Source: Beroe forskalii (lineage: Eukaryota > Ctenophora > Nuda > Beroida > Beroidae). From it: DNA of 64,000 nt. Every line of letters starts with the position of its first letter. The first letter of the stretch is position 1. Below the pieces are notes generated by a model, which saw only the letters and a program-made list of their open reading frames with translations, ran no database searches and was not told the DNA's origin. The stretch is from the NCBI GenBank assembly GCA_011033025.1, contig WFMF01000074.1:372001-436000 (forward strand). Direction: 5' to 3'. The position numbers and the translations under genes are program-made. Of this stretch, positions 10,025 to 46,545 are shown piece after piece.

Positions 10025-13000
10025 ACTGTACAGAGCAGTGTCCTGAGAGTTCCTAGGAGAGTGTCTGAAGTACAGAGCAGTGTGCTGAGAGTTCCTAGGA
10101 AAGTGTCTGAAGTACAGAGCAGTGTGCTGAGAGTTCCTAGGAGAGTGTCTGAAGTACAGAGCAGTGTGCTGAGAGTTCCTAGGTGAGTGTCTTAAGTACA
10201 GAGCAGTGTGCTGAGAGTTCCTAGGAGAGTGTCAGAAGTACAGAGCAGTGTGCTGAGAGTTCCTAGGAAAGTGTCTGAAGTACAGAGCAGTGTGCTGAGA
10301 GTTCCTAAGAGAGTGTCTGAAGTACAGAGCAGTGTGCTGAGAGTTCCTAGGAGAGTGTCTGAAGTACAGAGCAGTGTGCTGAGAGTTCCTAAGAGAGTGT
10401 CTGAAGTACAGAGCAGTGTGCTGAGAGTTCCTAGGTGAGTGTCTTAAGTACAGAGCAGTGTGCTGAGAGTTCCTAGGAGAGTGTCAGAAGTACAGAGCAG
10501 TGTGCTGAGAGTTCCTAGGAAAGTGTCAGAAGTACAGAGCAGTGTGCTGAGAGTTCCTAGGAAAGTGTCTGAAGTACAGAGCAGTGTGCTGAGAGTTCCT
10601 AAGAGAGTGTCTCAAGTACAGAGCAGTGTGCTGAGAGTTCCTAGGAGAGTATCTGAAGTACAGAGCAGTGTGCTGAGAGTTCCTAGGAGAGGGTAGGAAT
10701 TACAGAGCAGTGTGCTAAGAGTTCCTAGGAGAGTGTCTGAAGTACAGAGCAGTGTGCTGAGAGTTCCTAGGGGAGTGTCAGAAGTACAGAGCAGTGTGCT
10801 CAGAGTTCCTAGGACAGTGTCTGAAGTACAGAGCAGTGTGCTGAGAGTTCCTAGGGGAGTGTCTGAAGTACAGAGCAGTGTGCTGAGAGTTCCTAGGAGA
10901 GGGTCTGAAGTACAGAGCAGTGTGCTGAGAGTTCCTAGGAGAGGGTAGGAATTACAGAGCAGTGTGCTGAGAGTTCCTAGGAGAGTGTCTGAAGTACAGA
11001 GCAGTGTGCTGAGAGTTCCTAGGGGAGTGTCTGAAGTACAGAGCAGTGTGCTGAGAGTTCCTAGGACAGTGTCAGAAGTACAGAGCAGTGTGCTGAGAGT
11101 TCCTAGGAAAGTGTCTGAAGTACAGAGCAGTGTGCTGAGAGTTCCTAAGAGAGTGTCTGAAGTACAGAGCAGTGTGCTGAGAGTTCCTAGGACAGTGTCA
11201 GAAGTACAGAGCAGTGTGCTGAGAGTTCCTAGGAAAGTGTCTGAAGTACAGAGCAGTGTGCTGAGTTCCTAAGAGAGCAGTCTCAGTAGAGCAGTGTGCT
11301 GAGAGTTCCTAGGAGAGTGTCTGAATTGCAGAGCAGTGTGCTGAGAGTTCCTAGGAGAGTGTCTGAAGTACAGAGCAGTGTATTAAGAGATCCTAGGAGA
11401 GTGTCTGAAGTACAGAGCAGTGTGCTGAGAGTTCCTAGGAAAGTGTCTGAAGTACAGAGCTACATGCTGAGAGTTCCTAGGAGAGTGTCTGACGTACAGA
11501 GCAGTGTGCTGAGAGTTCCTAGGAAAGTGTCTGAAGTACAGAGCAGTGTGCTGAGAGTTCCTAGGAAAGTGTCTGAAGTACAGACCAGTGTGCTGAGAGT
11601 TCCTAGGACAGTGTCAGAAGTACAGAGCAGTGTGCTGAGAGTTCCTAGGTGAGTGTCTTAAGTACAGAGCAGTGTGCTGAGAGTTCCTAGGAGAGTGTCT
11701 GAAGTACAGAGCAGTGTGCTGAGAGTTCCTAGGAGTAGGAGAGTGTCTGAAGTACGGAGCAGAGTGCTGAGAGTTCCTAGGAGAGTGTCTGTAGTACATA
11801 GCAGTGTGCTGAGAGTTCCCAGGAGAGTGTCTGAAGTACAGAGCAGTGTGCCGAGAGTTCCCAGGAGAGTGTCTGAAGTACAGAGCAGTGTGCTGAGAGT
11901 TCCTAGGAGAGTGTCTGAAGTACATAGCAGTGTGCTGAGAGTTCCCAGGAGAGTGTCAGAAGTACAGAGCAGTGTGCTGAGAGTTCCTAAGAGAGTGTCT
12001 GCAGTACAGAGCAGTGTGCTGAGAGTTCCTAGGAGAGTGTCTGCAGTACAGAGCAGTGTGCTCAGAGCTCCTAGGAGAGTGTCTGAAGTACAGAGCAGTG
12101 TGCTGAGAGTTCCTAGGAAAGTGTCTGAAGTACAGACCAGTGTGCTGAGAGTTCCTAAGAGAGTGTCTGAAGTACAGAGCAGTGTGCTGAGAGTTCCTAG
12201 GTGAGTGTCTTAAGTACAGAGCAGTGTGCCGAGAGTTCCTAGGACAGTGTCAGAAGTACAGAGCAGTGTGCTGAGAGTTCCTAGGACAGTGTCAGAAGTA
12301 CAGAGCAGTGTGCTGAGAGTTCCTAGGACAGTGTCAGAAGTACAGAGCAGTGTGCTGAGAGTTCCTAGGAGAGTGTCTTAAGTACAGAGCAGTGTGCTGA
12401 GAGTTCCTAGGACAGTGTCAGAAGTACAGAGCAGTGTGCTGAGAGTTCCTAGGAGAGTGTCTGAAGTACAGAGCAGTGTGCTGAGAGTTCCTAGGGGAGT
12501 GTCTGAAGTACATAGCAGTGTGCTGAGAGTTCCTAGGAGAGTGTCTGCAGTACAGAGCAGTGTGCTGAGAGTTCCTAGGACAGTGTCTGAAGTACAGAGC
12601 AGTGTGCTGAGAGTTCCTAAGAGAGTGTGTGAAGTACAGAGCAGTGTGTTGAGAGTTCCTAGGAGAGTGTTGGAAGTACGGAGCAGAGTATTGAGAGTTC
12701 CTAGGACAGTGTCTGAAGTACAGAGCAGTGTGCTGAGAGTTCCTAGGAGAGTGTTGGAAGTACAGAGCAGTGTGCTGAGAGTTCCTAGGAGAGTATCTGA
12801 AGTACATAGCAGTGTGCTGAGAGTTCCTAGGAGAGTGTCTGAAGTACAGAGCAGTGTGCTGAGAGTTCCTAGGACAGTGTCAGAAGTACAGAGCAGTGTG
12901 CTGAGAGTTCCTAGGACAGTGTCAGAAGTACAGAGCAGTGTGCTGAGAGTTCCTAGGACAGTGTCTGAAGTACAGAGCAGTGTGCTGAGAGTTCCTAGGA

Positions 13001-13485
13001 CAGTGTCAGAAGTACAGAGCAGTGTGCTGAGAGTTCCTAGGAGAGTGTCTTAAGTACAGAGCAGTGTGCTGAGAGTTCCTAGGACAGTGTCAGAAGTACA
13101 GAGCAGTGTGCTGAGAGTTCCTAGGAGAGTGTCTGAAGTACAGAGCAGTGTGCTGAGAGTTCCTAGGGGAGTGTCTGCAGTACATAGCAGTGTGCTGAGA
13201 GTTCCTAGGGAGTATCTGAAGTACAGAGCAGTGTGCTGAGAGTTCCTAGGACAGTGTCAGAAGTACAGAGCAGTGTGCTGAGAGTTCCTAGGAGAGTGTC
13301 TGAAGTACAGAGCAGTGTGCTGAGAGTTCCTAGGAAAGTGTCTGAAGCACAGAGCAGTGTGCTGAGAGTTCCTAGGAGAGTGTCTGAAGTACAGAGCAGT
13401 GTGTTGAGAGTTCCTAGGAGAGTGTCTGAAGTACAGAGCAGTGTGCTGAGAGTTCCTAGGAGAGTGTCTGAAGTATAAAGCAGTG
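10025..13485. repeat. satellite array of 42-bp units
   Basis: Roughly 82 tandem copies of a 42-bp unit containing GAGAGTTCCTAGGAGAGTG and AAGTACAGAGCAGTGTGCT. Because 42 is a multiple of three, long repetitive ORFs with a 14-residue period appear on both strands; these are artefacts of the period. Marked variants recur 252 bp apart (the AGGTGAGTGTCTTAAG variant at 10181 and 10433; the GGGTAGGAATTAC variant at 10691 and 10943), showing a six-unit higher-order repeat in the left third. A few units carry indels (about 11270, 11740, 13210). Confidence 0.97.
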
Positions 13486-16400
13486 TTCCTTTGCTTTCGT
13501 TTCATTTGCAGTAGTTAATTTCCGATAATTTTCTTTTGCCGCAAGAATATTTTCTATACTGTTGGTTATGTATATTTTCTTCCGCTCAAGTCTGCCGAGC
13601 ATATCGTTTTTAAGTGATATATGTTATTTTTTAGGAAGTTGTAAGCTTATTAAACATTTAACTATGCAATTGCTACTATGTTATGAAGCAATTTTGAATA
13701 TTACCTGAATTTGTTTGCCGATTTTTCCAGCTGTCAACAAAGTATTAACAGTTATCAAATACAAAATATTTTCAGGATGAAATGCAGCGCTAGGAAGACT
13801 ATCCTTTCAGGTTTCGACTTACGGGGAATAAATTCAAGTGGAATGGAAAGCCTCTCGGAGAATAAATTCGAGTAATAAAAACGGGAGGTAAATATCTCGC
13901 ATAATCTCATCAATTTGTCGCGAATTCGACGCAGAGTCAGGTGGATCTAAGTGAATTCCAGCGAATTCAGTAGAGGTGAATTCACGTGAGTTCGCGAGTA
14001 CCAGTTCAGGTGAATTCACCTGGTAAACTTAAAATCTGCGGAAATATGCAGCGAATGTCTCAATTCGCTCAAGTTTGCTGTACTGCTGTATTCTACACGG
14101 AAACTCATGAGTAGTCCAACAAAAATTGATTTTGGCGACAAATCCGCGGTGAATTCAGGTGAACTTGAAACAATAAAGGATTACCTTATCACATCTAAGT
14201 ATTGCATCACTTCATAACTGTGATTTGGGAAAACTCCCATTAAATAGGTGCCCTAATAGTAATCCTAATAGTAGACAGCTTTGTAACTAAAGCCAATACA
14301 ATGTACACAGAGTTTATCAAATTAGGCTATGATACATCTCGACTACACTCATCGTATAAACAGACGAGCAGGAGGCACTGCTTCATGGATAAGTATGGTC
14401 AGGCTTGTAATGACATTTTCCGCAGTGACTCTAGTTCCTAGTTTCACTACGTTGCAATTCTGGTCATTGTTCAGTGTCGTTTGTAGAACTGATACATTGT
14501 TTCGTAGTCAAGTATTAGTTTATTTGTAGGATATTAGTTTATTTGTAGTGTTTTTTGTAGTGTTTTTATCCTTTTTTATCTTTTTATTTTCTATTTTATT
14601 TTAATTAGAATTTAGAGACACTTTTTACAGTATTTTCAAGGATATACTATTTTAAACGTAAATTTTATTAATTAACGTATAATATCTTCCCTATTTTAGA
14701 AGTAAACAGGGGACTGTTTCCGGAATTAAAAAGTCTTTTAACCCTGTCATGGTGGTCAGTAGCCCACAGTTGCTTCTGTAATGTTCTAAAGATATTCTAT
14801 GTTAAAAACTGCCTCTTCTTGCGTATAGGCTGAGTCGTGATGTAGTTCGTAGGTGTGATCATCAGCATTAACTGCCACCAGAAGCGTAAAATCTTGTAAA
14901 GTTCCGTTGTAAATTTGATTTATTCTGGATTGTAAATATACACCAATTCGATTAAGATTCGCGATTCAGTTCAGTGCATATTCAAGTGCATATAGAATAT
15001 AGATATACGCCACATTCTAGGTACTTATTTAAATATTCGATGCTCGTACTTCTCTGATTGGGAGGGTTTTCCGACATATTACGGAACATCTTACTACTTA
15101 TAATTCTTCCTCATATATAAATAATTATATATCTGTCTGTCCGGTCTCCCTTATATATAGCCACAGACCTCTCTGACACCACTCAGTACCCAATCAAGCA
15201 TACCGATGATCGGAATGCTTATACGAAAGTACCAGTGACGTTTGACACCACCAGGTATATAGACATCACTGAGAGGAGTAGTCACACCCGATTAAAATAT
15301 GACCTTATCACTGATAAGAACTACAGTACTACATTATACTGTACGAATTGTACTGCATACTGTGCCAATGGTGAACGGTGGCCGGAGGCCACGGGCCCTG
15401 CTAGTTGTTTTAAAGTTTCATGATCTAGGGTTTGATGAACGAGCACTTAAATCTAGATTAATGTGTAGGTAATACAGAACGCACAACTTCAAATTTAATG
15501 ATATTGATACGTGAGTACAATCACTATTTGAATAGGTAAGAGTTTGTGGTATTTCCTATGTATTTTACTTCCTGATCGTGCAATCTATCACGTTTGTGGT
15601 AATCCCCGTTCGAGGTTCCCGTTTCGTTACAGTTTGTGCTGTTGCGTATTCTGACCTTTTTACTTATAAATACCTAAAATTCTAATATTTCATTTTAGAC
15701 TTCACTGCCTAATGTTTTTGGTTTAGTCTTACATTTTTACTAGAAAGGACCGTTGGGCCTGCTAGATAATACAGGACCAAATATTAATAATAAGCTCTCA
15801 AAATAATAAACTCTCAAAAAGTTTATGAAGGAGCAAAATTAACCATAATTCGTTGGTTACTTTTAGTAATGATGGACCGTGCAAGTTTTGATCTTTATAA
15901 TTTGCTCTTGTATGATGAATTTAAATCTGACAATTAAAACCGAGTATCGTACTCATACTGAACGTTGAATCAAAGCATTGATTTACGCCAAGAGCACTAT
16001 TCCCAAATCGCATTGTGCTATGCCCAAATTCGATTCAATTTGATTTTGATTTTGTTCAATCTTAAATTGCTGTAAATTCACATTTTTCCGTTACCATCAA
16101 CTCAGCATTGATTTAAATCGACCGACGTCTGTCACAGATTTATGAAGAGATAATAACGAAAATAGCCTCCACGATGCCAGCCATACCCGTTCTCTATTTC
16201 ACGATCTTGAATTTCAAATGAAAACAGTAAACACGTCGTTCTTTCAAACGCTAAAACGCAGCAATCAACAACGTATCAGAAAGCACTCGCATAGAATTGA
16301 TCATAATCTGCACGTGCAGAATACCTGTATCCATAGCAACGGCGCGACTTAGCCCAGCTGAGCCTTCATTTCTCTTGATATTATCTTGGCAAGCTCAATT

Positions 16401-17440: not shown

Positions 17441-17707
17441 CAATATTTAGGACGGTTGTTATGGGAACTCGTGTAGTCGCTACCTAGCAACCTAAAAATC
17501 TCAGAATCCTCCAATCCGCCATTTCTCGGTTATATTCTAAGTAACTTTTTTAGAAATATTTGCTGTATTTTTTTCAATGATCTAAAAAGTAAAAGGGGCC
17601 TTGAACACTTTTGGCGCACCCTGTTGTATAGTTGTAATTTGTATTAATCTATAAATCCTCAGTGAATTGTATCTAGATAAAAACTTTCCTTTTAGATTCA
17701 GGATAGA

Positions 17708-20700
17708 ATGGAGCCCAACACACACCGAGCCATTCGTAAAGGCACAACCCTTGGTCTTGTAAGTTATAGTACACCGGATGGGACAAAATAAACGTCACAA
17801 AATTAATGTCTCATAACTTTGACTGTATTTTAATCTAGAGCTTATTAACATAATTTTCGGATATCGTATGACGTATACATCGAGATAATCAGTTTTTTCC
17901 TGCCAAAATTCCAAGTTTATCGGTGGAAATATGCTTGATTTGTAGGAGCGAGAATTACTAAGCGGGCCAAAACGGACTCTTTAAATTTGCAAACTTCCCA
18001 AGTCGAGTGAAATAAGAAAAAACCTAGATCAATTAAACTATATTGATACTTGCTTGACTTATTAGAATACTCGGAGGCAAGAAATTTTATTGAGAGGATA
18101 TTACAGATATATAACGTCTAGAAAGTTATCGTATGATAAGGGAGACGATGTTTCCCAAAATAACATACATTATTAATTTCAGATCGATCATGATAAAGAC
18201 CTCGAGGTGATGTCAATTTTCAAAGAGTGCTTCAACACTAGTGTTAAAGGGTCCATCTGTAACCGATACGATGGAGACCTCTGTAGAGAGTGCTTGGATA
18301 CAACAGCAGGACAGGTATGCATTTGTTTTGCCGTACTTTCATTAACTGATATAGATGCGGTGTCCTCATTACCCGATCGAGAGTTCAAAGTCAATAATTC
18401 TGGACAGTCATTTATAATACATCCAGTTTGTAATCTAACTCAGCATTGATTATCGGCCAACCTCTGCCACAGAAAACAATCCATCTCAAATATCCTCCTT
18501 TATTCAAGTTATGTCCATTCTCCATTTTTTACTGCATCAAAAAATTCCAATTTTGCACGTGCAAAAATTTATTGCACGTGCAATAAATTTGCACGTGCAA
18601 TTCCCCCATTGCGCGCGCGTTGCCATGGGGCGTGACGTACAATGAACATACACGATTTGCGACTTTATAAGTATTAAGTAAGACTAGCAGGCCCGTTGGG
18701 CCTGCAAATACACAGCTCACTCGGCGCTGCTACGCAGCACCTCGTTCGCTTACACTACCATTGATTGAATATTTTTTACCGCATCAAAAAATTCCAATCA
18801 TATCAAAAGTTACGAAGCTCCGAAATTAAAACAGCATTAAACCAAAATGATCGAGCGCGCGCAGTTAATCTGCACGTGCAATTTCCCCATTTCGCACGCG
18901 TTGCCATGGGGTGTGACGTACGGAGGAACACGAAATGCGAAATTATAAGTAAGACTAGCAGGCCCGTTAGGCCTGCTAATACACAGCTCACTCGGCGCTG
19001 CTACGCATTACCTCGTTCGCAAAATTCAAACCAACTAAATACTTCTTACCGCATCAAAAAAACCCAATCAGATCAAGAGTTACAGATCAACGTATTCAAA
19101 ACAGCTTAAACAGAAATGAACGCGCGCGCAATATGTAACCATAGCAACGCGCGCGCATATATCCATACTGCACGTGGGCGCCCCAAAATGTGTCTACAAA
19201 AGGACAAAAGACGTTACGACGTACATAATTATGATAATAATACAGAGGTTGCGAAATTATATTAGATATTATGATTATATATTATGCAGTTGATCGTTGA
19301 ACGAATAAAAGCTGAGAAAGCACACACCAAGAAAACTAAAGAATACTCCAAGAAAACAAACAGAAGATTCCAGAGGTGCAAAGAAAGAGTACCTGAACAG
19401 GTACACGTATATGAATTATACAAGTAATGTCTTTTCTACTATCTTAGATATCTAGACATCCACTTTGTTTTAATTAAGTTTCGTCAAAGCCCTTGCGTGA
19501 CTATTATAATATGATATTAAATGATAGAGAAAATGTATCACTCAAACGTTAAAATAATAATAGAGCTTCCGCCAGGATACTTTTGTGATCGTAGAGCCTG
19601 CATTTCAAGACGTTGATAATGGTACGAAAATCATCGAAGATGGAGAGGAATCTACTGGAAAGGTAACTGCAGCTATGACCAGAAGGAATAGAATAAGAGA
19701 ATAAGGGCCCTTTGGAAAATTTGCCATAAATAACAAGAATTGCGCCTGCAGGCTCGGTTCTTATTTTCCACCGTTCCCCTATGCAGGCGCTTAGTTTCCC
19801 TCCCGTCATAAGAAAAGAACAATTTATCACTCGAGGATAAATTTAAGTTCCTGGCAAGGTACTCGCATAACTTTATGGAGGTTTCACGTGTAATCATCAG
19901 TTTAATTACGCCGCGCATGTTTCGTAGGTTCGCTGTTGTTTTAGATTTCGCGCGAAGATCTTATTTCATTTTAATATGTAAGTTTTATTTCGTTAGGAGC
20001 CAGACGACTCCTCGTACACGTTTGCCTACTTCGCTACTTATGATTACGCTGCCTCTTCGATCTTCTGATATAATAAATGGTAAAAAAACGGTTTTTACTC
20101 CGAGATGATCACTAATTATAATATTTGATTTTGTTCAACATATTTCTTTGATTTATTTCAGTTGCTAGTTGACGATTCATTTCAGTTGCTAGTCCCATAA
20201 CTCTGTCAAATTGCATCAATTGCTTTAGCTCTTTAATGTCGTAGCAATTGGACTATTAGTTCCTGGAAAGCTGATATATTTGTTGTCTACTTTTTTGTTC
20301 GAAATGCCAGTAATAAAGACGTTGAAATGAGTTTGTAAGTAAATCATAATTAAGTCTACTCCTCGGCCTGATGTTCTATTCATCTACAGGGCACAGGAGT
20401 GAATTACTGATATTCTGATAATCGCCTTTCTGACAGCTGATTACTCTGGGCTAAATCAGTCGATCATTGTCGAGTACCTGTCAGCGCGAAAGTTTAAGAA
20501 TCATGAATTATGAAAATTGGTGAGGACGGACATCGGCCATCATGCGCGTGCGCACGTGCAACACGAATACTGCCTCCTGATTGGTTGTTAGCATGGTTAC
20601 CACAGTATAGGTAGTATGTACAAATTTTCCGGGCATTTTCAGAATTCAGAATTTGTCCATTGCCAACCCTCCTCATTGCCTTTTTGTATTCACAAAAAGG

Positions 20701-23700
20701 CCAATGAGGAGGGAAAAAATGGAGGATTGGTACGAAGCCTCGTCAAGTGAGCTGTGATTACGTTATTGGTGATGCGGGATACCGTTGTCACAAAATTGGT
20801 GTAACATGAAATTGGTTTCACTACTCACTACTCACTGTGACTTATACACATAACCACGTGTATCAGTCACTATGATAAGCGTCTAAAAACTTGGGAAGTC
20901 AAATGATTATTGTTTGCTTTTTTCCTCATTACGATATGATTTCAGGCATCACTCTACAAAGAAGCCTCTGACGCGACATCTTGCCCACCACCTGAGGTGG
21001 AACCTGAAACTGCAGAGGTGGGACCTGAAACTGCAGAGGTGGAACCTGGAGTTTGTGAGGTGAAACCAGAAGCTGTAAAGCCTCTCATACAAGGGGCTCT
21101 CCATCAACAAGACTTAGTGCTAGTAGTAAGTGCATGGGTTTTCGGTGGGATGAACAATTTGACATAATATCATAACGTCTTGCTTATCATATAACAATGC
21201 AATCCAATGTCTTATCAATAGAGGTGTATGCCGTATGGGTATACTACAAGCTACCAGAGCTCTTATCTCCTGGCTTCTCGGCCTCAATGTCCGCCTTCTT
21301 CGATTATGCACGTCCTGCACCGCGAAGTAGTTGAGGGCAGATATCTACCTGTGTTAAAGTCTGCGAAGATACCTTATTGGCATTTATTTTGCTTGCAATT
21401 TTTAACCGGCTCTATGGAAAAGATCGAATAATTGTTTTCGCCACTTCGCCAGGTTGAATGAGGGCCAATAAGGTATATTCTCCAGTTGGATAATGGACCC
21501 CCAATGACCACAGTATTAGATAGTGCGTAATGATTTATAGCGCTTATCTAATTGCACATAGTGATAAGCACTGGTAGGTACCTATTAGCTAACTGAATGA
21601 GAAGCCAAGAGCAAAATGAATGAGCAATAACACTTCTGTGGCGTCCAACGTATGAGAAAATCAGACGGTTTTTTTCGTATATATATTTTCAATGATTACA
21701 ATTATTACCCTCCCGTGGCTCAAACTCCAGTGTGATAATTATCGATATATCACTCCTTCATAGAACTACTGTACAGTGGCGGAATAATAGAACAAAATAT
21801 CTTTAAATGAATTGTTGATTTTATGAAGGAGCACTCGAAAATCAATAAAACCGTTGAATTCAGACGAGGGTCGTCAGACCCGAGTGGGAGGGAGAACTGT
21901 TTTGTCGGGTAATAATACAATTAACAAACTCATGGATCGTGTGATATCGAAAATTGTCAAACTCGGCTAACGCCTCATGTGATAATTTTCGATATAACAC
22001 TCCCATTCGTTTGTTAATCGTACATTACATTGTAAAACCCACTCTATACGGGAATGCTGCTAAGCGAATAGTCTCGTCATTTTTCCCTAGTTGCCTGCAT
22101 GACAATACTCTTCAGTCTCAAATAGACGGGGGGACGATTGCAGTTTTTGGATTTTTACTACGGTGGGGGACAGTTATTTAACACCCTCCTCGTTTAGAAA
22201 TTTTGAAAATTTTGAAAAAATACATACATAAATCAAGTAAAAATTCGTATTTTTTGTTTGAATTAAGCAAAATCAAGCACTACCGAAAGCTTCGCCAACT
22301 GTTATCTCAGCATTACCGTCTTTTTCTTGATCAAAGACCAGAGTCCATTTCTTTGATCAAAATAACAACTTGATGGGTATTTCAAACCATTCGATTGAAA
22401 TTAACCTCCTACCTCCCTCTTATTTGCAACCCCCTTTTTACGACAATTTTGAAAAACCTACACAGGGGGACAGTTATTACAGCCCCCCGTCTATTTGAGA
22501 CTGAAGATATGCTTTACAAGATATATGGTACAATTAATTGAACTTTTACTGAAGATAATTTGTACGAAATCGCATGTGTCACAGTTCTTATTAGTGTATA
22601 CTTAAGCAAAATTTGGAATGTTTAATTACGTTTTGAATTCAGATCAAAGAAGAAATGACGCCTCGGCACGCAGCACCGGATAAAGAAGGTATTAATGATT
22701 CAAGATAGATCCCAAAGCTCAACGAAATTATCGTCCTTTAGCAATAAAAGCGCCTACGGGCAAGTCTTCAACTGAACTCTGAACATTGCTTAATTACCTT
22801 ATTATTTGCAGGCAAGAGCCTTCTCGCAAGGCGGAGACTTTTTTCTGATGAATCAGCTAAGGGAGAAATCCTTGGTAACAAGGTAAATCTTACAATAAGA
22901 AATTTGTTAAGCATGTTGATTCGGCTTGTTCACTGCAGCTTATAGTAAAACCAAAGGAAAATTCTTTATTCAGTAATTCATAGGTAAGGTTCTTACTTCA
23001 TCCGGTCTACTAAATAGTACTGAAAGTCTTTCGTATTTAATTATCACACTCAGCAGGAAACAACAGAGCAAATCAGTTCCATCAAGATATTGAACTCCAA
23101 GAAAGTTTCTGCTGACCCTCAAAATGTGAGTGATATTTATAATAAATGATTAATATTTAACCCATTTTCGAAATAAATTGATGGTGTGGTTTTAATGGGA
23201 TCATTCTTCGTAAGGAAACAAAAATGATGCACCACAAGCCTATATGCAATGTCGAGAATAGTGTTAGATATGGGTTGGATCAAATGTCGGTGCGTGAATC
23301 AGTTTAATAATATCACGCAAGAAGTGCAAACCTTCCAAATTTGATTGATTACTCGGCCTACGGCATCGGTTCACTAGTTACGTAACCTATCATCAATAAA
23401 CATTCTTGAACTCTTAATAACCACTTAAATACGTTCATATATTGTGTTACTGTTCTGATAAGAAATTTCCGGTTAACCGAACCAGAAACCCGGGCCAACC
23501 GGAACTGAAACTGACTTTGACAGAATCTGAAAAACCGAATTGAGCCGGAACCGACTTTGACAGAATCTGAAAAAACTGAACCGAGCCAGAACGGGAAAAA
23601 TTAACAGTTTTCTCGGTTTTTCTTTCGGTTATTTAAATAACCAAAATAAACGATAGAATAGACGAAATCATTCCGTTTTATATTGGCTACCGGTGTACAA

Positions 23701-26613
23701 TAGTTTGCTGTTCCCGACATGATAGATTATTGCTTTATTGGTAATAATGCTCTGGTGTCAGTGTGCGCTGCAACTGGTGTTTGAGTGTGGAAATGTCAGA
23801 GGGCTAAGTGCGCTGGTGTTGGAGTGAGGAGTGTACTGTTGTCAGAATTCACTCCTGCATCAGCACTGCTGTCAGAGTAAACTGGTGTCAAAGAGTCCGA
23901 GCGCACCGCTCTCAGGAGGCACAATAGTGTCAGAGTGAATTACAATGGTGCCACTGAACAAATATACTGTACTGGTGTCAGACTCAGAATGCACTGGTGT
24001 CAAAGTGTACTAGTGTCACAGTTAACTGTTGTCAAAGTTCGATGCTGTCAAGGCACACTCGTTTGACAAAGTGACGTGGTGCATAAGTGCGCTAGCGTCA
24101 GAGTGCACCAGTGTAAAAGTGTACTGGTTTCACAGTGAGCTGGTTAGATGCACAGTTAGTGTTAGAGTGTAAAAACACCAGTATGGAGGAATACCGACTC
24201 ACCCTTGGGCCTTGGTGGCCAAAAACGGACCTTATAAGGCGGTATTTAAGTGCTGGTCTCAGAGTCCACTTGTGTCAGCTTGTAATTATGTGATAGAGCC
24301 ATGTGGTTTCAAAGTGTGCCGGTGTCAAATAGAGCTCAAGTGTCAGAGTACGCTGGTGTCAGAGTGCTCATGCACCAGCTTCAGAGTTTGTTCATTGGTC
24401 ACCGAGTGATGTGCCTCAGAGAGGTAGGTAGGCAAAGTGCACATATTATGTTGGCCGTGGCGTCACGACTTATCTGTATAGTATTTGCAGATACTAGATG
24501 CTAATACCTCATTGGACTTATAAATCATCAGGACCTAAAGTTTTCACGGACATTAATTTTCACGATATAAGGTGCTCAGTGTGAATGTAATGTCCGTGAT
24601 TATTATGTCTGGTAGTAACAAACCATTTAAATTTTCATACCGAGATGATTTTGAATTGTTTGCAACTGAAACCGAACCGAATGAAAACCGGAATTTGAGC
24701 AAATCGCGGAAACTGCAACCGAGTTTGCGGTTTTTAACTGTCACAAACCGTAACCGAAACCGTGACGGAAGTAAATTAGTTTGTCAAACCATTACCGTAA
24801 CCATAACCGACGTTCAATAAGTCGTATAACCAGGAACGAAAACGGAATTTTCAAAAAATTGGAACCGGTCGATTCCTAGTTCTGATCAATATCCCCTGCA
24901 GGAAAGAAATGTTTTGGTCTTTGGAGCAGGACCGAGTTACCAGGTACACAATAGCTCTGACAGAATGATATTAATCTTACTTTACATATCGGAGTATGAA
25001 TTAGAAGTAAATATTCAATGTTTTTAAGTAATCGTGACGTACATTTAAGACTACAATATTAATGAGTTGCAACAGAAAAGAGCTGAAAGACAAATCCCTT
25101 CATATTTCAGGCCCAGACATCAAAAGACCCCACGACACCGGAACATCAAGTAAAAAAGGTATTTAGGTCATGAATTTTAGGATGGTAATAATTTGCAACA
25201 ATTGCCTTAGTTCAGTAACTGTCTAGGCTAGAAAATAGAGGTGTAGTGATGGAAATTGGAAAGTTTATTGCCATCATCTCTATAGACAAAATTATCCTCC
25301 TACTAGCTTACTACTCTTCAGTCTCAAATAGACCAGTGCAAGTTTTTCAAATATGTCGTAAAAAACTGCAATCGTCTCCCCCCCCGTCTATTTGAGACTG
25401 AAGAGTAGGTATGATTTGACTAACTATTGGCTATAGGCGTTTGGACTTGTGAGCGGTTAGAAGCGCTTGAGGCACTTCACGCAACCAATTAAGCCAATTT
25501 AACAATAAAATCTTCTTTTTTCAGTTGATGTATGCCTTAGATAAAGCAATTGCAGATACTTGATGCTTCCATCAATGCAATATACCAACTTGTTTTTTTT
25601 AGATTTTACAACTATGGAGCTACAAACTACATAGAATTGCTTCTCAAGCATGTTTTATTTGTAGTGGAATAGCCTGTACTGTACAGTCTGCAGGCCGCCT
25701 GCAGACTGTACATATTATAAAGCTCGGTATAACTGAAAATACTGGGAACAAGCAGGTTCAAGTCCCGCTCGCCGCTCACACCCAGTATCTTTAGTTATAC
25801 CGAGTGTATATCGTACAATAAACTAACTCATGGATCGTGTGTTATCGACAATTATACCAAACTCTGCTATCGCCTCGTATGATATTGATCATTGTTGATA
25901 ACACTCACCCGTTTTTTTAGTTTACTGGTAATCAAAAATTAAATGATGAACATAGTATCATTCATACACTCCCTTTTCGACCCAATGCAAATTGCACTCA
26001 TAAGTCCAAAAAGCTTAAATATGCCCATGTACTATAGTGAAGCGTTATCAATGAAAGACAGTAATTTTGTCAGATCGACGGTGTAGGGAGATCCAAATTG
26101 GGGAAGTTTATGCAAGAACTGAAGATCAAAAGTGAAAGAAGAAAAATCGCTGCAGAATCGCCAAAGAAGGTGACTCCATCCTTTACTAAGGAATGTTACT
26201 TTGCATTGAAGCGTGATATAAGTCGCATGATTAACGGAGCCTTAAAACGTTTCGATGTAACAAAGTAACATACGTCATCTTCAGTTCTGAAAATAAACTT
26301 TTTTCAAAAATTATATTTGATACGAACGAAAAATAAATTAATTGAAAAACAACAAATATTCAATCAAAATTTATTACTAAAACACACTAAATCTACTAAT
26401 CTGTTACTGAAACTAGTAACTAGTAATGAATTTTGGTTGAATATTTGTTGTTTTTCAATAAATTTATTTTTCGTTCGTATCAAATATAATTTTTGGATAA
26501 AGTTTATTATATACTCAATTAACCAATTACAATATTGCCACAGGTGCAGGACAGAGGAACTTCTACACTTGGATCATCAGAGAAGACAAATAAGAAAAGG
26601 GAGTCTAAAGAAA
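17708..26613 (+). CDS. N-terminal small exons 1-12 of the recombinase-domain gene
   Basis: Twelve short exons (42-180 nt) encode residues 1-334. Exon 1 begins at the ATG at 17708 (MEPNTHRAIRKG), six bases after a CAG acceptor, so a 5' UTR exon upstream is expected. Exon 2 is cysteine-containing (FKECFNTSVKGSICNRYDG). Exon 3 is Lys-rich. Exon 5 contains an imperfect repeat of the type EVEPETA/EVGPETA/EVEPGV/EVKPEA. Exons 6-12 are rich in Lys, Glu and Ser. Phases are 0 except the exon 6/7 junction and the exon 12/13 junction (phase 1), where the split codons close correctly. Short exons of this kind are easy to mis-call individually; the uninterrupted agreement of phase is the argument for them. 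Confidence 0.6.
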
Positions 26614-29600
26614 GTTAGTTTTTGAGAATAAACATAGAGATTTGACCAAATTTGACCAAAATTAGCCTCTATCAGCTTCATGGAGGCTGACCTCAAAAAT
26701 TAGCCTCCATGGAGGGCAATGGCTGCAATATAGGCCAATTTTTGAGAAATAGCCTCCACTGTGGAGACTAAATAGCCTCCATTAGCATAATCTTCCTCTA
26801 AGCCTCCACTTGGCTTTACTCAGTCTCCACTAGGCTCCACTCAGCCTCTACTAGGCTCCAATTAGCGTCCATTATGCTCCATTCAGCCACCAATAGGCAC
26901 CACTTAGCCTCCACTAGGCTCCACACAGCCTCCACTAGCCTCCACACTAGCCTTATAACCTTGAATGAATAAAATTTCCGGCAGAGCATCAAAATTAAAC
27001 CACTTCACCAACGTTTCCGTCGAGTTTCCGAATTTCATAAAGGAGCACTTTTTTGCGTGTGTAATAAGCGGTATCAAAACTTACATGGTCGAGCTCAGGA
27101 GACAGCCGAGACTGTCTAAGTTGGATAATGCACGAGGAAATAGCTGGGACCGACTATTTTCTGCCCAATCAACAGCATTTCTTACCACTCGGGTCAGACG
27201 ACCCTCGTCCCGATTCAACGCTTAAGTAGATTTTTGAGTGCTCCTTCATGAAATAAAATTTCATTTTTAGATTTTTTGCACTTTAATTCAGAGGCTACCG
27301 TATAACCTAACTTACACGGTCGCTACTCGAGTAATCAGACTGGGAAGGGTTATAATGACTCCCACTCTCATTTTCTGGTCAGTTTCAGAATAACTGTACC
27401 GGTAGAAGTCGCATACATATTAAACATAAATGATCAAAACCATGATCATTTCAAACTCTCCCTCAATGCCTTTTTTTTTCCAAAAAAGGCGGGTTCGGGG
27501 AAATTTATATCCAAATGAACATCAATCAACCAATGAAAATCTCAAATACCTTCCAGTTGAGTGCTATTGCGGAATGACATTCAAAAGAAGGTACGTCCAA
27601 GACCATGTGATTCGCTGCCCCTTTGTTAAGGACAAGTCATCCCCTGAGAGAAAGAAGTTCGGTAAAGAACTACTTCAAGGAACATCTGGAGAGGTTAAAA
27701 ACGTTTCCTGCTTCATCAAGGGATGCTCTTCGAAAGTGTCCTTAGCAAATTATGCAAAGCACTTCCGACCAAAGAATACGGCTGGTAAGACATCTCATCT
27801 TCTCGTTTTCTAAACACACCAAGGGTCATCTTAGTGCGCATTGTACAAAAGCAAATTGTATACCTTAGATAGATTGTGACCTCTCATGAAAAGGTGCTCA
27901 AATTATCAGAGTGCGTAGAAAATATTTCAATATACTAGAAGTTATTAAATGTCTCATGTCACTATCTCTGAATAATGATGATTATAGTCTCTGCGACAAA
28001 ATAATACATTAATCTGAATTAATAAACTGAAATCGGATCTATTTATCAATATCAGATTCTTTTGTTTTGTCGCAGAGGCTATATCATCATTTTAACCAGT
28101 ATCAATATGTGACTTATAGACAGTGATCTGATCATTCAGTTAAGAAACACCCATTGTTTCTCATTGTAATAATAATATAATCGTTTACAGATGAACACTA
28201 TAAAGTGTGGGAAGCATCAGTTAGGTACCGGGTACCTCTGAAGAAGATAGTTCCCCTTGCACCACTCTCAGCGGATGAAGCTGTTGAAGCCTTAAAAGTG
28301 AGATCTACGGTGCTGTTGAATACAGAGGATGACGACGGCCGAGAACCAGTACCAGTGCGAGATGACACTTCACTGTCAACTAGAACTGCAACAGAGATTG
28401 ATCAGTTTTGTCGTCCTCATGTTACATCGGAGAAACTCCCAACATCTCTTCAATCAGTACCAGAAATGTCTGTTTCAACAATGACTGCTCCTGAAGTTCA
28501 GGACCACTTGAGCTCTTCCAAGCCATCGTGTTCGGGTGTTTCTCATTCAGATAGTCCAGCAGCTGATGCTGTACCCTACATCCCACTTCCAGCCGGGTAT
28601 GATGACATGGAAATTCCTTGCAGTTCTACTAAAAGGGGGGTGGATCCGCGAGAGATTCTGCCAGCCCCCAAAAGGCTGAAATCAGAACCACCTAACCAAT
28701 TGAACATTCAAGAGTGGAAAACTACCAAGCAAGGATCCATGAATCATGATAAATCTCTTCGCGTGATGTGCGAAGAGATGAACTGGGACGAAAAAGCAAT
28801 CCTATCTAACATAATTTCTAAGTTCAAATCATACCTTGAAATGATGAATCGTGAGGATAAAACTGTTTCTGGATATACGGGCAAAATTCGCAGCTTGATG
28901 AGCTCTTACATGAACCAGACTGGTAGCAAAATGTGGGAGGCAGTAACAGAAGCAGGGCTTCTAGCTTTGGTGGAGCACACCAACACTATTCACGCAGATA
29001 AGATGCCTAAAACGAAACAAACCTACTTTTCTGCAATAAAATGTTTCACCTTTTTCTTGGAAAAAGAAAAGTATCTTGCAGAACCTGAACTGAAATCAGT
29101 TCGTAGTGATCTTGACATTTGTATAAAGTCCAAAGCTAAGTAAGTATTTTTTTAATGATTCTTGAATTAATCATTCTTTATTCTCGCGTTCTCCTTCTAC
29201 GCGTTTAGACAAAAATACGTAGAAGATAGCAAGTTATAGTAGCATGGGCGAGGGTTGAATAATTGGAGATGCCCATAAGCCCATTGCGACTTAAACAATT
29301 GTCATAAAATTGTGGTTTAATTTTCCTTTAAAAATTTTCCGACTTTTTCATGATTTCAGGTTTGCTTTTAAACTTTATCTCACAGGGCTGTTCAAAAGGC
29401 AAACATAGATAGGAGAGAAGATAAGGAGGAGGAGTGTTTGACGAAGAATGAGCTGGCGAAGATATGTCTTTCAGACAGGTGGCCAGACATTATCGATCTT
29501 CTAAGAGAAGACAGCAGAAGTGGGACATTGAGGAATTTCGCGGCTTGCCGTGGAAGTTCCTTCCTTGGAACACTTCTGCTGAAGAGTGGCCGCTGTGGGG

Positions 29601-32313
29601 AATCTTTGCTCCTCACGGTTGAAGACGTGGAAACAGCCACACCTATCCACTGTCAAGACACGAAAAGAGTGTACATGTATCGTTATAAGTATGTATAACA
29701 AATTAATAAACCATGAATAGATTAATATCAATATAAACATATTGTGATAATTGAGCTACCTAGCTGTGTTGACTGTCACATGTCTTGCTGTACTACATAG
29801 ATGTAGTGACAAGCGAGAAGACTTTTTCGTCTCCCAGAGAGAAAATTTTCTTTGGGGTTTGTGTGTTAACAATTACTGTTTACCATCCTTGTCCCCTATT
29901 CATACGTGACCAAATTTGGCAGTATGCATGCATATTGCATGCCATGGTCATAGTAATGACCTGATGACGCATTTCTCCAATAAAAATTTGTCAAATTGTT
30001 CCACGTCTTACTCATCTGATGTATATAATGCATTTGCATTAACATATTATGTGCCTCATTCCTCAGGACGAGAGGTAACCGTGCCCATGGGGTTGCGAAA
30101 ACTTACGTTACCCATAGTGGCTCACCATGCCTTTACGTAACACCAACGATCCATGAAGTTATCTGTGAATTCGGCCGAATGTACAAAACATTCAGGGATG
30201 AAGGAAACCGTCAGCTATTCTTCTCGGCAAAGACGGGAGGATTCACTCAATCGAACCAGGGTTCAAATATGGTATGTTGAAATATAATATTTGAGATAAT
30301 GATAAGGAAACGACCGGTTCCAATTTTTTGAAAATTCCGTTTTCGATCCCGGTTACTTGACTTATTGAACGTCGGTTATGGTTGTAACGCTAAGGGTTTG
30401 ACAAACTAATTTAATTCCGTTATGGTTTCGGTATTTAACAGCTGAAAACCGCGATTTTGGTTGCAGTTTCCGCGATTTGCTCAAATTCCGGTCTTCATTC
30501 GGTTCGGTATCGGTTGCAAACAATTCAAAATCATCTCGGTATGAAAATTTAAATGGTTTGTTACTACCGGACATAATAATCACGGACATTACATCACACT
30601 GAGCACCTTATCGTGAAAATTAATGTCCGTGAAAACTTTAGGTCCTGAAACTTAAGTCCGTGATGATTTATAAGTCCAATGAGGTATCAGCATCTAGTAT
30701 CTGCCAATACTATACAGATAAGTCGTGACGCCACGGCCAACATATGTCATCCGAACCGCGACCGTTGCTCCTCAGACGTCTTTTAAGGGGCCTTGTCGTA
30801 TAGCATAGCGCATTTTAGGAAAGTAGGAAGTGCACTTTGCCTACCTACCTCTCTGAGGCACATCACTCGGTGACCAATGAACAAACTCTGAAGCTGGTGC
30901 ATGAGCACTCTGACACCAGCGTACTCTGACACTTGAGCTCTATTTGACACCGGCACACTTTGAAACCACATGGCTCTATCACATAATTACAAGCTGACAC
31001 AAGTGGACTCTGAGACCAGCACTTAAATACCGCCTTATAAGGTCCGTTTTTGGCCACCAAGGCCCAAGGGTGAGTCGGTATTCCTCCATACTGGTGTTTT
31101 TTACACTCTAACACTAACTGTGCATCTAACCAGCTCACTGTGAAACCAGTACACTTTTACACTGGTGCACTCTGACGCTAGCGCACTTATGCACCACGTC
31201 ACTTTGTCAAACGAGTGTGCCTTGACAGCATCGAACTTTGACAACAGTTAACTGTGACACTAGTACACTTTGACACCAGTGCATTCTGAGTCTGACACCA
31301 GTACAGTATATTTGTTCAGTGGCACCATTGTAATTCACTCTGACACTATTGTGCCTCCTGAGAGCGGTGCGCTCGGACTCTTTGACACCAGTTTACTCTG
31401 ACAGCAGTGCTGATGCAGGAGTGAATTCTGACAACAGTACACTCCTCACTCCAACACCAGCGCACTTAGCCCTCTGACATTTCCACACTCAAACACCAGT
31501 TGCAGCGCTCACTGACATTTAAACTGAAATCGATATTCCCATCATCAATCATTTAGATATAGATATAAATGCATATTATGCATATTTTTACAGATTGCAG
31601 CAGGACTAGCGGCGTTGGGGCTCGAAGAAATATCGTCAAAGAGGGAGAGATCCGTGACGACAAACCTTATAAGACATTCTACAATAACCCTGACAAATGA
31701 TGTAGCTGAAACAGACAGGGGGATTAGGAAGCTGGTGGCGGGCAGTGCTCAGCACTCAGAAGCAACGTCAAGCACCTATTACAATTTCTCTAAAAAACAA
31801 GGAGTGAGTAGATTGCTGAATATTCAAAAGGAGTTACACATCGGTCAGGCATGATTCTGGAAATTAACAAGAATGCCTGACCGATGAGAGGGAAGATTAT
31901 GTTCCCCAAAATTGGACACCCACAAACGAGGAACACACATGAAAATTTCAAGTGTGTTCCTCGTTTGTCGGCTCCAACTACTGTGGGTTCATAATCTTCC
32001 CTTTTCTGGGGCTTAAACTCAATCAACCATTGTTGTTACAATTCGCGCAGTGGCGAATGGATTCTGACGACCGGTTATATACCCGGAGGACTCCCGGAGA
32101 ACTCCTGCGAGTCTCCCGCAGTAGTTCGCTCATATGACCCTTTACAATGCTTTTCAATAAGTATGCCTTTTTCAGTCAGCTCAGGCAACCGCTGCACTTG
32201 ACATCTACGAAAAATGCCGCAAGAACGGCTTTAAAGAAGATGACAGGGAGTATCATCCTAGGAGTTTAGAGGCACACATGTCTGACTCTGAGTCCGAAAG
32301 TGGTCAAGACTAA
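17708..32313 (+). CDS. multi-exon gene with zinc-knuckle motifs and tyrosine-recombinase domain
   Basis: Eighteen coding exons: 17708-17758, 18183-18314, 19290-19400, 19576-19662, 20946-21125, 22643-22688, 22812-22882, 23057-23125, 24902-24943, 25111-25158, 26074-26169, 26544-26613, 27557-27784, 28191-29139, 29386-29688, 30067-30271, 31594-31803, 32176-32313. Every junction has AG/GT ends and matching phase (including phase 1 and 2 junctions), and the sum is 3036 nt, 1011 codons plus stop. The product has a charged low-complexity N-terminus (1-334), two Cys/His motifs (about 335-405), a linker with short acidic and Ser/Pro stretches, a helical core-binding-like region (about 635-725) and a tyrosine-recombinase catalytic region (727-966). 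Catalytic candidates are Arg797, Lys839, Arg923, His950 and Tyr959. Tyrosine recombinases cut and rejoin DNA; Crypton-derived host genes such as KCTD1, ZMYM and QRICH1 relatives have kept the fold, generally not the active site. Function here is unknown; nuclear DNA binding is likely. The C-terminal half is much firmer than the small upstream exons, and the 5' end is uncertain. Confidence 0.75.
18538..19170. repeat. three diverged copies of a GC-motif-rich segment in intron 2
   Basis: Units at about 18530-18765, 18770-19040 and 19045-19170 share blocks: ACCGCATCAAAAAA, the E-box palindrome TTGCACGTGCAA (three times within 18553-18602), GCGTTGCCATGGGG followed by TGACGTAC, and the palindrome GCAGGCCCGTTGGGCCTGC with a CTCACTCGGCGCTGCTACGC tail (18687 and 18958). 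Likely MITE copies; the motifs resemble bHLH, RFX and CRE sites, but no regulatory role is shown. Confidence 0.7.
20668..20713. repeat. perfect-stem hairpin in intron 4
   Basis: CCCTCCTCATTG.CCTTTTTGT and its reverse complement ACAAAAAGGCCAATGAGG(AGGG) face each other across a 4-nt loop, a stem of about 20 bp with one bulge. Confidence 0.8.
21702..22030. mobile_element. fold-back element, copy 2 (intron 5)
   Basis: Direct copy of 5411-5735 at high identity, with the same internal hairpin and the CGAGGGTCGTCAGACCCGAG palindrome. It lies in the intron between coding exons 5 and 6 of the recombinase-domain gene. Confidence 0.75.
22110..22506. mobile_element. MITE with perfect CTTCAGTCTC... terminal inverted repeats
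   Basis: 397 bp bounded by CTTCAGTCTCAAATAGACGG and its exact reverse complement ending at 22506. The motif GGGGGACAGTTATT recurs near both ends (22165, 22465). No ORF. A much shorter relative is at 25316-25403. Intron 5. Confidence 0.85.
23756..24871 (+). mobile_element. 1.1-kb repeat, forward arm of an inverted pair (intron 8)
   Basis: Matches 30311-31517 in the opposite orientation at high identity. The left half is a loose tandem of GTGTCAGAGTGCACTGGTG-type words; the right half contains CACGGACATTAATTTTCACG and a run of CCGAAACCG words, ending GGAACCGGTCG. It ends 30 bp before coding exon 9. The reverse arm has about 90 bp extra near 30743-30830. No convincing ORF; non-autonomous element of unknown class. 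Confidence 0.85.
25316..25403. mobile_element. 88-bp MITE, short relative of 22110-22506
   Basis: Same CTTCAGTCTCAAATAGAC terminal inverted repeat at both ends, with a deleted interior. Sits in the intron after coding exon 10. Confidence 0.85.
25680..25712. repeat. 33-nt palindrome
   Basis: TGTACAGTCTGCAGGC, a single central C, then the exact reverse complement. Immediately followed by the hairpin element at 25723-25804. Confidence 0.9.
25723..25804. mobile_element. 82-bp hairpin with a tRNA-like B-box
   Basis: Ends are 24-bp inverted repeats (CTCGGTATAACTGAAAATAC and, at the right, GTATCTTTAGTTATACCGAG). The loop contains GGTTCAAGTCCCGC (from 25755), a match to the tRNA T-arm/B-box, but no A-box or cloverleaf is present, so this is not a tRNA gene. 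Probably a small element with a tRNA-derived piece. Confidence 0.6.
25808..25925. mobile_element. inner hairpin of the 5411 family, diverged copy
   Basis: Shares AACTCATGGATCGTGTG and the mirrored ATCG..ATAACACTC half with 5619-5735. Intron after coding exon 10. Confidence 0.65.
26292..26508. mobile_element. fold-back element with about 86-bp near-perfect arms
   Basis: Arms 26292-26377 and 26423-26508 are near-perfect reverse complements (left contains GATACGAACGAAAAATAAAT, right ATTTATTTTTCGTTCGTATC) around a 45-nt loop. It fills most of the intron between coding exons 11 and 12. The ORF through it is a shadow. Confidence 0.9.
26655..26955. repeat. degenerate minisatellite of GCCTCCACTAG type
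   Basis: Tandem words such as GCCTCCACTAGGCTCCACTC repeat with about 10-11 bp sub-period through the intron between coding exons 12 and 13. Confidence 0.8.
27033..27255. mobile_element. MITE related to the 5411 family
   Basis: Begins ATTTCATAAAGGAGCAC and ends GTGCTCCTTCATGAAAT, an inverted terminal repeat of about 17 bp with one mismatch. The right part carries GGGTCAGACGACCCTCG, the reverse complement of the palindrome in 5411-5735. Confidence 0.7.
27557..27784 (+). CDS. exon 13: zinc-binding motif exon of the recombinase-domain gene
   Basis: Encodes residues about 335-410. Two Cys/His clusters are visible: CYCGMTF followed by YVQDHVIRC, and CFIKGCSSKVSL followed by YAKHF, both compatible with C2HC/C2H2-like zinc knuckles. 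The acceptor is CCTTCCAG at 27549-27556 and the donor GTAAGA at 27785; the last base G joins AT of exon 14 to make Asp. The frame is also open upstream of the acceptor (to 27430), so a longer alternative first exon cannot be excluded. Confidence 0.7.
27974..28091. mobile_element. 118-bp MITE with TIRs (intron 13)
   Basis: AATGATGATTATAGTCTCTG followed by CGACAAAA at the left is mirrored by TTTTGTCGCAGAGGCTATAT and CATCATT at the right. Lies between coding exons 13 and 14. Confidence 0.75.
28191..29139 (+). CDS. exon 14: linker and core-binding-like region
   Basis: The largest exon (949 nt, residues 411-726). It starts after TTTACAG, and (G)AT completes an Asp codon. A Ser/Thr/Pro- and Glu-rich linker (SSSKPSCSGVSHSDSPAAD) is followed by a basic patch (PAPKRLKSE) and, near the end, a helical stretch with MNREDKTVSGYTGKIRSLM and KTKQTYFSAIKCFTFFLEKE. 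The latter resembles the N-terminal core-binding (SAM-like) domain that precedes the catalytic domain in tyrosine recombinases. The donor is GTAAGT at 29140, phase 2. Confidence 0.8.
29386..29688 (+). CDS. exon 15: recombinase motif I
   Basis: Residues 727-827. Contains LLLKSGRCGESLLLTVEDV, which aligns with the first arginine motif of tyrosine recombinases (the TGLRVSEL-type strand-turn-helix in XerD); Arg797 and Glu800 are the conserved positions. Acceptor CACAG at 29381-29385, donor GTATGT at 29689, phase 2 at both ends. The intron that follows (29689-30066) has no noticeable insert. Confidence 0.8.
30067..30271 (+). CDS. exon 16: recombinase central part with candidate catalytic lysine
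   Basis: Residues 828-896. HGVAKTYVTHSGSPCLYVT matches the beta-hairpin region where tyrosine recombinases carry the catalytic Lys (here Lys839), followed by an amphipathic helix (EVICEFGRMYKTFR). The His-x(3)-Lys-Thr pattern resembles the HKT motif I associate with Crypton-like animal recombinase genes; that recollection is unverified. Acceptor CCTCAG, donor GTATGT, ending in phase 0. The following intron contains the inverted repeat arm 30311-31517. Confidence 0.8.
30311..31517 (-). mobile_element. 1.2-kb repeat, reverse arm of the inverted pair (intron 16)
   Basis: Reverse-orientation copy of 23756-24871. Fully contained in the intron between coding exons 16 and 17, so it does not disrupt the reading frame of the recombinase-domain gene. 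The two arms enclose exons 9 to 16. Confidence 0.85.
31594..31803 (+). CDS. exon 17: recombinase motif II and catalytic tyrosine
   Basis: Residues 897-966. NLIRHSTITL aligns with the HxxRH motif (Arg923 kept, the first His replaced by Asn920), and GSAQHSEATSSTYYNFSKK aligns with the GHS..TT..Y motif: His950 and, nine residues later, Tyr959, the spacing seen in XerD. Acceptor TTTACAG, donor GTGAGT at 31804. This exon makes the family call; chance occurrence of both motifs at correct spacing in a spliced frame is unlikely. Confidence 0.85.
31839..32001. mobile_element. two adjacent hairpins in intron 17
   Basis: Hairpin 1: CATCGGTCAGGCAT (31839-31852) with its exact complement at 31873-31886. 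Hairpin 2: outer stem GGGAAGATTATG (31890-31901) with CATAATCTTCCC (31990-32001), inner stem ACAAACGAGGAACACAC with GTGTGTTCCTCGTTTGT (31952-31968). Together they lie in the last intron of the recombinase-domain gene. Confidence 0.8.
32176..32313 (+). CDS. exon 18: C-terminal exon with stop
   Basis: 45 codons and TAA at 32311-32313. Encodes a helix (AQATAALDIYEKCRKN) and an acidic end (SDSESESGQD). The acceptor is TTTTTCAG. The first AATAAA downstream is at 32718-32723, a plausible poly(A) signal. Confidence 0.75.
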   Translation, partial: SAQATAALDIYEKCRKNGFKEDDREYHPRSLEAHMSDSESESGQD

Positions 32314-46081: not shown

Positions 46082-46545
46082 GTATTCGGACCCCCGTTAT
46101 TCGGACCCCCGTTATTTGGACCCCCGTTATTCGGACCCCCGTTATTCGAACCCCGTTATTCGGACCCCCGTTATTCGGACCCCCGTTATTCGGACCCCCG
46201 TTATTCGGACCCCCGTTATTCGGACCCTGTTATTCGGACCCCCGTTATTCGGACCCCCGTTATTCGGACCCCCGTTATTCGGACCCCTGTTATTCGGACC
46301 CCCGTTATTCGGACCCCCATAACTCGGACCCCCGTTATTCTGGACCCCGTTATTCGGACCCCCGTTACTGGACCCCGTTATTCGGACCCCCCGTTATTCG
46401 GACCCCGTTATTCGGACCCCTGTTATTCGGACCCCGTTATTCGGACCCACGTTATTCGGACCCCCGTTATTCGGACCCCGTTATTCGGACCCCCGTTATT
46501 CAGACCCCCGTTATTCGGACCCCCGTTATTCGGACCCCCATTATA
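46082..46545. repeat. 15-bp minisatellite in element copy 2
   Basis: About 31 units of TTATTCGGACCCCCG and one-base variants, longer than the array in copy 1 (about 26 units). Confidence 0.95.

Follow-up and report, generated by a model that had tools for sequence, protein, structure and literature searches.

A spliced, duplicated gene with homology to tyrosine recombinases in the genome of the ctenophore Beroe forskalii

We analysed a 64-kb stretch of the 216-Mb, 1134-contig Beroe forskalii genome (C847:372001-436000, hereafter the window), which contains an 18-exon gene at 17708-32313 on the forward strand. The gene encodes a 1011-residue protein with a charged spacer, a zinc region and a tyrosine-recombinase body. 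It is open and splice-consistent, has homology to recombinases with conserved active-site letters, and has an open ancient paralogue on another contig (C614), and we found no dispersed copies of it. We think that it is probably a long-resident animal host gene with one diverged paralogue; its likely origin is capture from an element that carried a recombinase, at a time before the two copies split. Its most likely role is that of a domesticated recombinase that would act as a nuclear DNA-binding protein and may still be catalytic.

Rebuilding the gene at the nucleotide level reproduced exactly the phase-consistent chain of 1011 codons proposed in the first-pass annotation. The 18 exons comprise 3036 nt with a sole, terminal stop codon, and all 17 introns are GT-AG with consistent phases. 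The N-terminal part is spread over exons 1 (17708-17758, amino acids 1-17, with the putative start ATG), 2 (18183-18314, amino acids 18-61), 3 (19290-19400, amino acids 62-98, rich in Lys and Glu), 4 (19576-19662, amino acids 99-127), 5 (20946-21125, amino acids 128-187, composed of 7-residue repeats encoded by a 21-bp tandem array), 6 (22643-22688, amino acids 188-202), 7 (22812-22882, amino acids 203-226), 8 (23057-23125, amino acids 227-249), 9 (24902-24943, amino acids 250-263), 10 (25111-25158, amino acids 264-279), 11 (26074-26169, amino acids 280-311) and 12 (26544-26613, amino acids 312-334). A splice acceptor of good quality lies at 17702, just 5' of exon 1; the ATG at 17708 may therefore not be the true start, and exon 1 may be an internal exon. 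The charged N terminus described in the first-pass annotation is borne out by composition (11.7% Lys and 11.4% Glu).

The remaining exons carry the recognizable domains. Exon 13 (27557-27784, amino acids 335-410) holds the zinc motifs, and exon 14 (28191-29139, amino acids 411-726) a linker and a core-binding SAM-like domain (amino acids 597-727), identified by profiles and a structure model. Box I with R796 and E799 is in exon 15 (29386-29688, amino acids 727-827), K839 in exon 16 (30067-30271, amino acids 828-896), and N920-x-x-R923, H950 and Y958/Y959 in exon 17 (31594-31803, amino acids 897-966); exons 15 and 17 are supported by the paralogue and the profile alignment, and exon 16 by the paralogue. 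Exon 18 (32176-32313, amino acids 967-1011, stop at 32311-32313) has a homologous end in C614. Comparison with the intact homologous paralogue confirms exons 13-18.

Exons 1-12 were checked with a dynamic-programming gene finder that uses generic splice matrices not trained on the species, takes its codon usage from the paralogue together with exons 13-18, and has 17759-27556 as background. Both boundaries are identical for 8 of the 12 exons (1-4, 6, 7, 10 and 11), one boundary is altered in two more (exon 5, donor at 21059; exon 8, start at 23054), and exons 9 and 12 are not recovered; an extra exon absent from the 18-exon model is placed at 27383-27401. The resulting chain scores 39.0. None of 60 dinucleotide shuffles exceeds 2.7, the reverse strand gives -15.1, and three stretches elsewhere in the window give -5.6, -12.1 and -22.9. 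The model is least secure at exons 9 and 12. Exon 12 has a weak tblastn match to C614 (E 1.1) and remains plausible all the same, since joining it in phase 1 yields I-E-C as in the paralogue. No homologue was found for exons 1-12 (amino acids 1-334), the paralogue region giving only a weak match at the junction.

The paralogue (C614:562216-574500) has six exons that read without interruption between the zinc region and the stop codon, encoding 679 amino acids that are 37% identical overall to the window protein. By region, identity is 30/76 positions in the zinc exon, 44/162 in the linker, 46/131 in the core-binding domain and 95/212 in the catalytic part. Introns 14/15, 15/16 and 16/17, which are three of the five C-terminal introns of the window gene, have the same column and phase in C614, while the remainder comprise two found only in the window gene and two only in C614 (all compared by eye). 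The shared positions and phases indicate that the intron-bearing gene is older than the duplication. Synonymous differences between the two genes are saturated (pS 0.86 in the core-binding and 0.81 in the catalytic domain), whereas nonsynonymous differences fall short of saturation (pN 0.47 and 0.43). The host-gene structure noted in the initial reading thus holds, with 18 spliced exons, GT-AG introns and a paralogue that shares three of them.

Two exons 5' of the C614 copy (558144-558249 and 559682-559749), on the same strand and with matching phases, encode a Tudor domain when joined (Tudor_2 E 9.4e-9, above its cut-off; PHF20L1 E 2e-4); a genome-wide Tudor_2 scan made exon by exon scores this place at E 0.011 only. 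Downstream of these exons and upstream of the paralogue, a 29-residue exon is tripled together with its flanks (560026-560596; the Tudor and tripled exons form locus L010, 558144-560596). Gene finding upstream of C614 traversed retrotransposon-like sequence, and the evidence here is restricted to the directly read Tudor and tripled exons, which may share a transcript with the paralogue. No Tudor domain was found in the 64-kb window, where the listed matches resemble chance. A Tudor domain is what the exons upstream of C614 have in common with the chromatin readers KDM4, PHF20L1 and 53BP1. Among open-access papers listed for a tyrosine recombinase together with a Tudor domain, none names either in its title or abstract.

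To place the family we used a reference profile of 69 tyrosine recombinases, comprising Cre, XerD and lambda Int together with the 66 sequences that passed a length filter among 80 XerD relatives from viral contigs. Aligned to this profile with hhalign, the two-member family scores 52.5 (E 1.9e-6) over 284 columns that run from the core-binding domain through the catalytic part, whereas the reversed control scores 12.8 and 60 column shuffles score at most 23.8. The core-binding part alone reaches 43.0 (E 1.6e-6), and the catalytic part alone 22.7 against a top score of 24.5 in 60 shuffles. When the core-binding part was left intact and the catalytic columns were shuffled 300 times, none of the 300 reached 52.5 (top 51.5) and none aligned to the end. 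These part-by-part controls make the core-binding domain solid and lend the catalytic domain joint, modest support. The recombinase relationship suggested in the first-pass annotation has significant profile homology behind it, most of which comes from the core-binding domain that immediately precedes the motifs on which that suggestion was based; the catalytic part alone falls within the shuffle range, and joined to the core-binding part it exceeds the shuffles narrowly.

Individual family models give a similar but fainter signal. In NCBIfam, XerA matches the window member (E 3.1e-4), XerC both members (E 0.0026) and XerD one of the two (E 0.018); an unrelated acetolactate synthase model matches one member near the XerC level (E 0.0072). 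The Pfam Phage_int_SAM_1 model matches the C614 paralogue at E 4.5e-5 and the window member at 0.13. None of the Pfam or NCBIfam integrase models reaches its curated cut-off, and plain searches of Pfam, PDB and PHROGs returned nothing significant for the window protein or its catalytic part. We found no relatives among phages, viral contigs or prokaryote genomes, the contig scans being weak with two short peptide patterns each.

AlphaFold2 predicts a helical structure for the core-binding segment from the two sequences, with a pLDDT of 82.9 for the best of five models and 39-45 for the other four. Foldseek comparison of this model with the PDB gives 188 matches at E<=10, none at E<=0.001 and the best at 0.3. 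Among the best 50 of the 188, the four highest probabilities belong to IntI (0.96 and 0.94), XerA (0.85) and a phage integrase N-terminal domain (0.72); the fifth is an Mcl-1 structure (0.66), and recombinases make up 8 of these 50. A model of the whole C614 exon from the zinc region to the core-binding domain was set aside as poor (pLDDT 43.9).

The catalytic motifs SGRCGES (position 794), HGVAKT (835), NLIRHS (920) and AQHSEATSSTYY (948) occur in that order. The recombinase order proposed for them stands, and their spacing is recombinase-like though stretched, with 163 residues between R796 and Y959 (162 in the paralogue) compared with 131 in XerD, 130 in lambda Int and 151 in Cre. Both paralogues have identical R796, E799, K839, R923, H950, Y958 and Y959. 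In the profile alignment the box I Arg, the box II Arg, the His and the second of the two tyrosines lie opposite their XerD counterparts, and the nine residues from H950 to Y959 match the interval that separates the aligned His and Y279 of XerD. K839 is the presumed catalytic Lys by position and not by alignment. Where HxxR recombinases carry the box II His, the window protein has N920 and C614 has Thr, a replacement that may be compatible with either an active or an inactive enzyme. Within five residues of the active-site letters 32/56 positions are identical, compared with 65/161 elsewhere, a modest difference. Zinc motifs, also noted in the first-pass annotation, are present in exon 13 as CxC-x11-H-x3-C and C-x4-C-x11-H, and their Cys and His residues are invariant in the paralogue.

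In overall plan the protein resembles the Xer/integrase recombinases (XerA, XerC, XerD, IntI and lambda Int): a catalytic-like part comes after a helical core-binding domain, and its R, R, H and Y line up with those of XerD. Its best NCBIfam matches are XerA and XerC, which stay far short of their curated cut-offs. It differs from them in being eukaryotic and encoded by 18 exons, in its charged and zinc-bearing N-terminal regions, in the 163-residue R-Y span and in the Asn or Thr of box II.

Known eukaryotic tyrosine recombinases include those of the Crypton transposons and of the YR retrotransposons DIRS, Ngaro and PAT, in comparison with which the window gene is spliced and without dispersed copies found. 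A comparison with Crypton/DUF3504 profiles, also raised by the first-pass annotation, came out negative. PF12012 and PF00589 each match seven places in the genome, none of them at the window gene or the C614 paralogue. Against a profile of four Crypton-type proteins of the same genome, the window/C614 family scores 19.6 by hhalign, inside the range of 40 shuffles (up to 21.3), and we rejected membership of the Crypton/DUF3504 group. As the four-sequence profile is thin, all that can be read from this result is the lack of a visible special kinship. The four Crypton-type proteins score 56.0 against the Xer-type set, compared with 52.5 for the window/C614 family. Their genes (L027, L028, L004 and L003) are single open frames of 317-484 amino acids, and four other recombinase loci that we read (L001 and L005-L007) contain only shorter frames. 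DUF3504 matches occur in L027 and L003, the former of which has a QRICH1-domain match as well (E 1e-6, just below cut-off). No viral-contig relatives of an own-genome Crypton-type protein were found.

Crypton-derived DUF3504 genes (WOC/ZMYM2-4, QRICH1, KIAA1958 and KCTD1) are, according to Kojima and Jurka (PMC3212892), likewise animal host genes in which a domain stems from a recombinase; zinc modules and conserved introns are found in some of them. The same authors give the recombinase tetrad as R-H-R-Y, report the human DUF3504 genes to be without the catalytic site, having lost the catalytic Tyr and second Arg, and note that in some birds a sequence of Crypton origin within the ATF7IP gene may retain activity (PMC3212892). 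The window gene, by contrast, keeps both the Tyr and the second Arg. Titles and abstract openings among the matches listed in open-access literature describe no spliced, non-DUF3504 tyrosine-recombinase host gene in animals.

Genome searches with the exon 14 protein sequence identify the window and, on C614, a single place that is 31% identical; exons 15-18 additionally identify C614 pieces and a fragment on contig C247. With the C614 protein as query, the window and C614 loci come up again, plus one stray match (E 1.8). In a DNA search with exons 14-15 (28191-29688), the matches listed are the window itself and C247 (80%), whereas the same search with the repeat at 23756-24442 as positive control gives at least 96 matches; copy counts from these DNA searches are lower bounds. 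The many near-identical dispersed copies that would mark an active transposon were thus looked for by protein and DNA, and none is among the matches listed, leading us to reject an active transposon on copy number. The 18-exon model, the gene-finder score, the lack of dispersed copies among the DNA matches listed and the 37%-identical paralogue together argue for an old host-type gene. The C247 fragment (387999-388375) is 377 bases long, aligns at 78% nucleotide identity to exon 15 plus parts of the introns on either side, and has frame breaks, for which we rejected it as a third gene; judged from these features it is a decayed partial duplicate. Counted by codon position, it differs from exon 15 at 21/100, 11/100 and 27/96 sites, too mixed a pattern to argue from.

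The control repeat, which is dispersed in the genome, is one of a near-identical inverted pair, non-coding for the protein, in intron 8 (23756-24442, forward strand) and intron 16 (30830-31517, reverse strand). The two copies agree completely over 420 nt and again over 272 nt and differ by one base in length, and other genomic matches are 64-83% alike; this pattern suggests that the pair arose by local duplication, or was made alike by gene conversion, in recent times. A Helitron-like element (window 2-3220; L131:3-5756) lies some 14 kb upstream of the gene, in which a 2OG-Fe(II) oxygenase and Helitron_like_N share one frame with an open 5' end, followed by a stop and a PIF1 helicase frame. 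No reverse transcriptase match to Pfam was found among the six window frames scanned. The window also contains a 42-bp minisatellite at 10028-13486, whose 82 copies have 92% matches and leave several frames open, and two 15-bp tandem arrays (38950-39332 and 46083-46544) with the common unit TATTCGGACCCCCGT. Further downstream are a Bromo_TP histone-fold frame (54788-55714, E 3.4e-7), which we take to resemble SUPT7L, and a RECK-like frame (57681-58109, E 0.0019, below cut-off). The genome as a whole has 13 innexin matches, which together with these two frames point to an animal.

Several other explanations bear on what kind of gene this is. The two regions of the model could be adjacent genes, exons 1-12 and exons 13-18, that have been fused by the annotation. 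The first 334 residues have no homology to the paralogue region beyond the weak junction match and exon 12 is missed by the gene finder, but the phases fit through all 17 introns in a single open frame, and we regard a fusion as unlikely. We give similarly little weight to a low-copy, nearly extinct transposon of a new recombinase-bearing type that has acquired introns, with the window, C614 and C247 loci as its remnants. Three loci of different ages in a repeat-rich region, with a Helitron-like element nearby, would suit such an origin. It fits poorly with the lack of dispersed copies among the matches listed, with two full copies that are both open despite 37% identity, and with shared intron positions and phases that put the intron-bearing form before the split; moreover, four Crypton-type recombinases of this genome are single open frames, though shorter frames alone are seen at the four other recombinase loci read. 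A long-resident host gene remains our preferred reading of the locus.

Among the predicted proteins of cnidarians and molluscs are some that combine zinc motifs with a C-terminal pattern resembling this one (xxxRH ... GHS ... Y) and are unnamed in public databases, which would make the family less novel; the gene could well be an ordinary member of a broad animal family deposited as 'uncharacterized protein', a view we hold at slightly less than an even chance. The PDB, including its eukaryotic proteins, has no relevant match to the window protein. A little less probable again, although still a serious contender, is that the fold has been kept purely as a sequence-specific DNA or chromatin binder with a dead active site, as reported for Crypton-derived DUF3504 genes (PMC3212892). 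The replacement of the box II His by Asn in one paralogue and Thr in the other, and the Tudor domain upstream of C614, agree with this. Set against it is the identity of R796, K839, R923, H950 and Y959 in paralogues that differ at 117/212 catalytic-domain sites and, more modestly, the higher identity close to the active-site letters. We judge retention and loss of the cleavage chemistry to be about evenly balanced.

The charged spacer of the protein is built from many small exons. As a domesticated recombinase, the gene would have been captured from a recombinase-bearing element, and duplication would then have given rise to the C614 paralogue. The protein would enter the nucleus, where the core-binding and catalytic lobes would be expected to clamp a specific DNA sequence in the manner of Xer/Cre-type enzymes, with the zinc modules, and perhaps the Tudor domain in the paralogue, adding DNA or chromatin contacts. 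The retained Arg-Lys-Arg-His-Tyr set could cleave and rejoin one strand through Y959. Full recombination in the service of the host would be a long shot. The same holds for the boldest form of this idea, in which a catalytically competent host site-specific recombinase of non-Crypton lineage would be targeted to chromatin by its zinc modules (and by a Tudor reader in the sister gene) for programmed DNA rearrangement or strand passage outside mobile elements.

Among the domesticated tyrosine recombinases of animals, the human DUF3504 genes have been described best, and they are reported to be without a catalytic site (PMC3212892). Here a spliced, anciently duplicated gene in which no DUF3504 kinship is seen keeps the Arg, Lys, Arg, His and Tyr, so that the existence of a working, host-use recombinase in an animal genome becomes directly testable.
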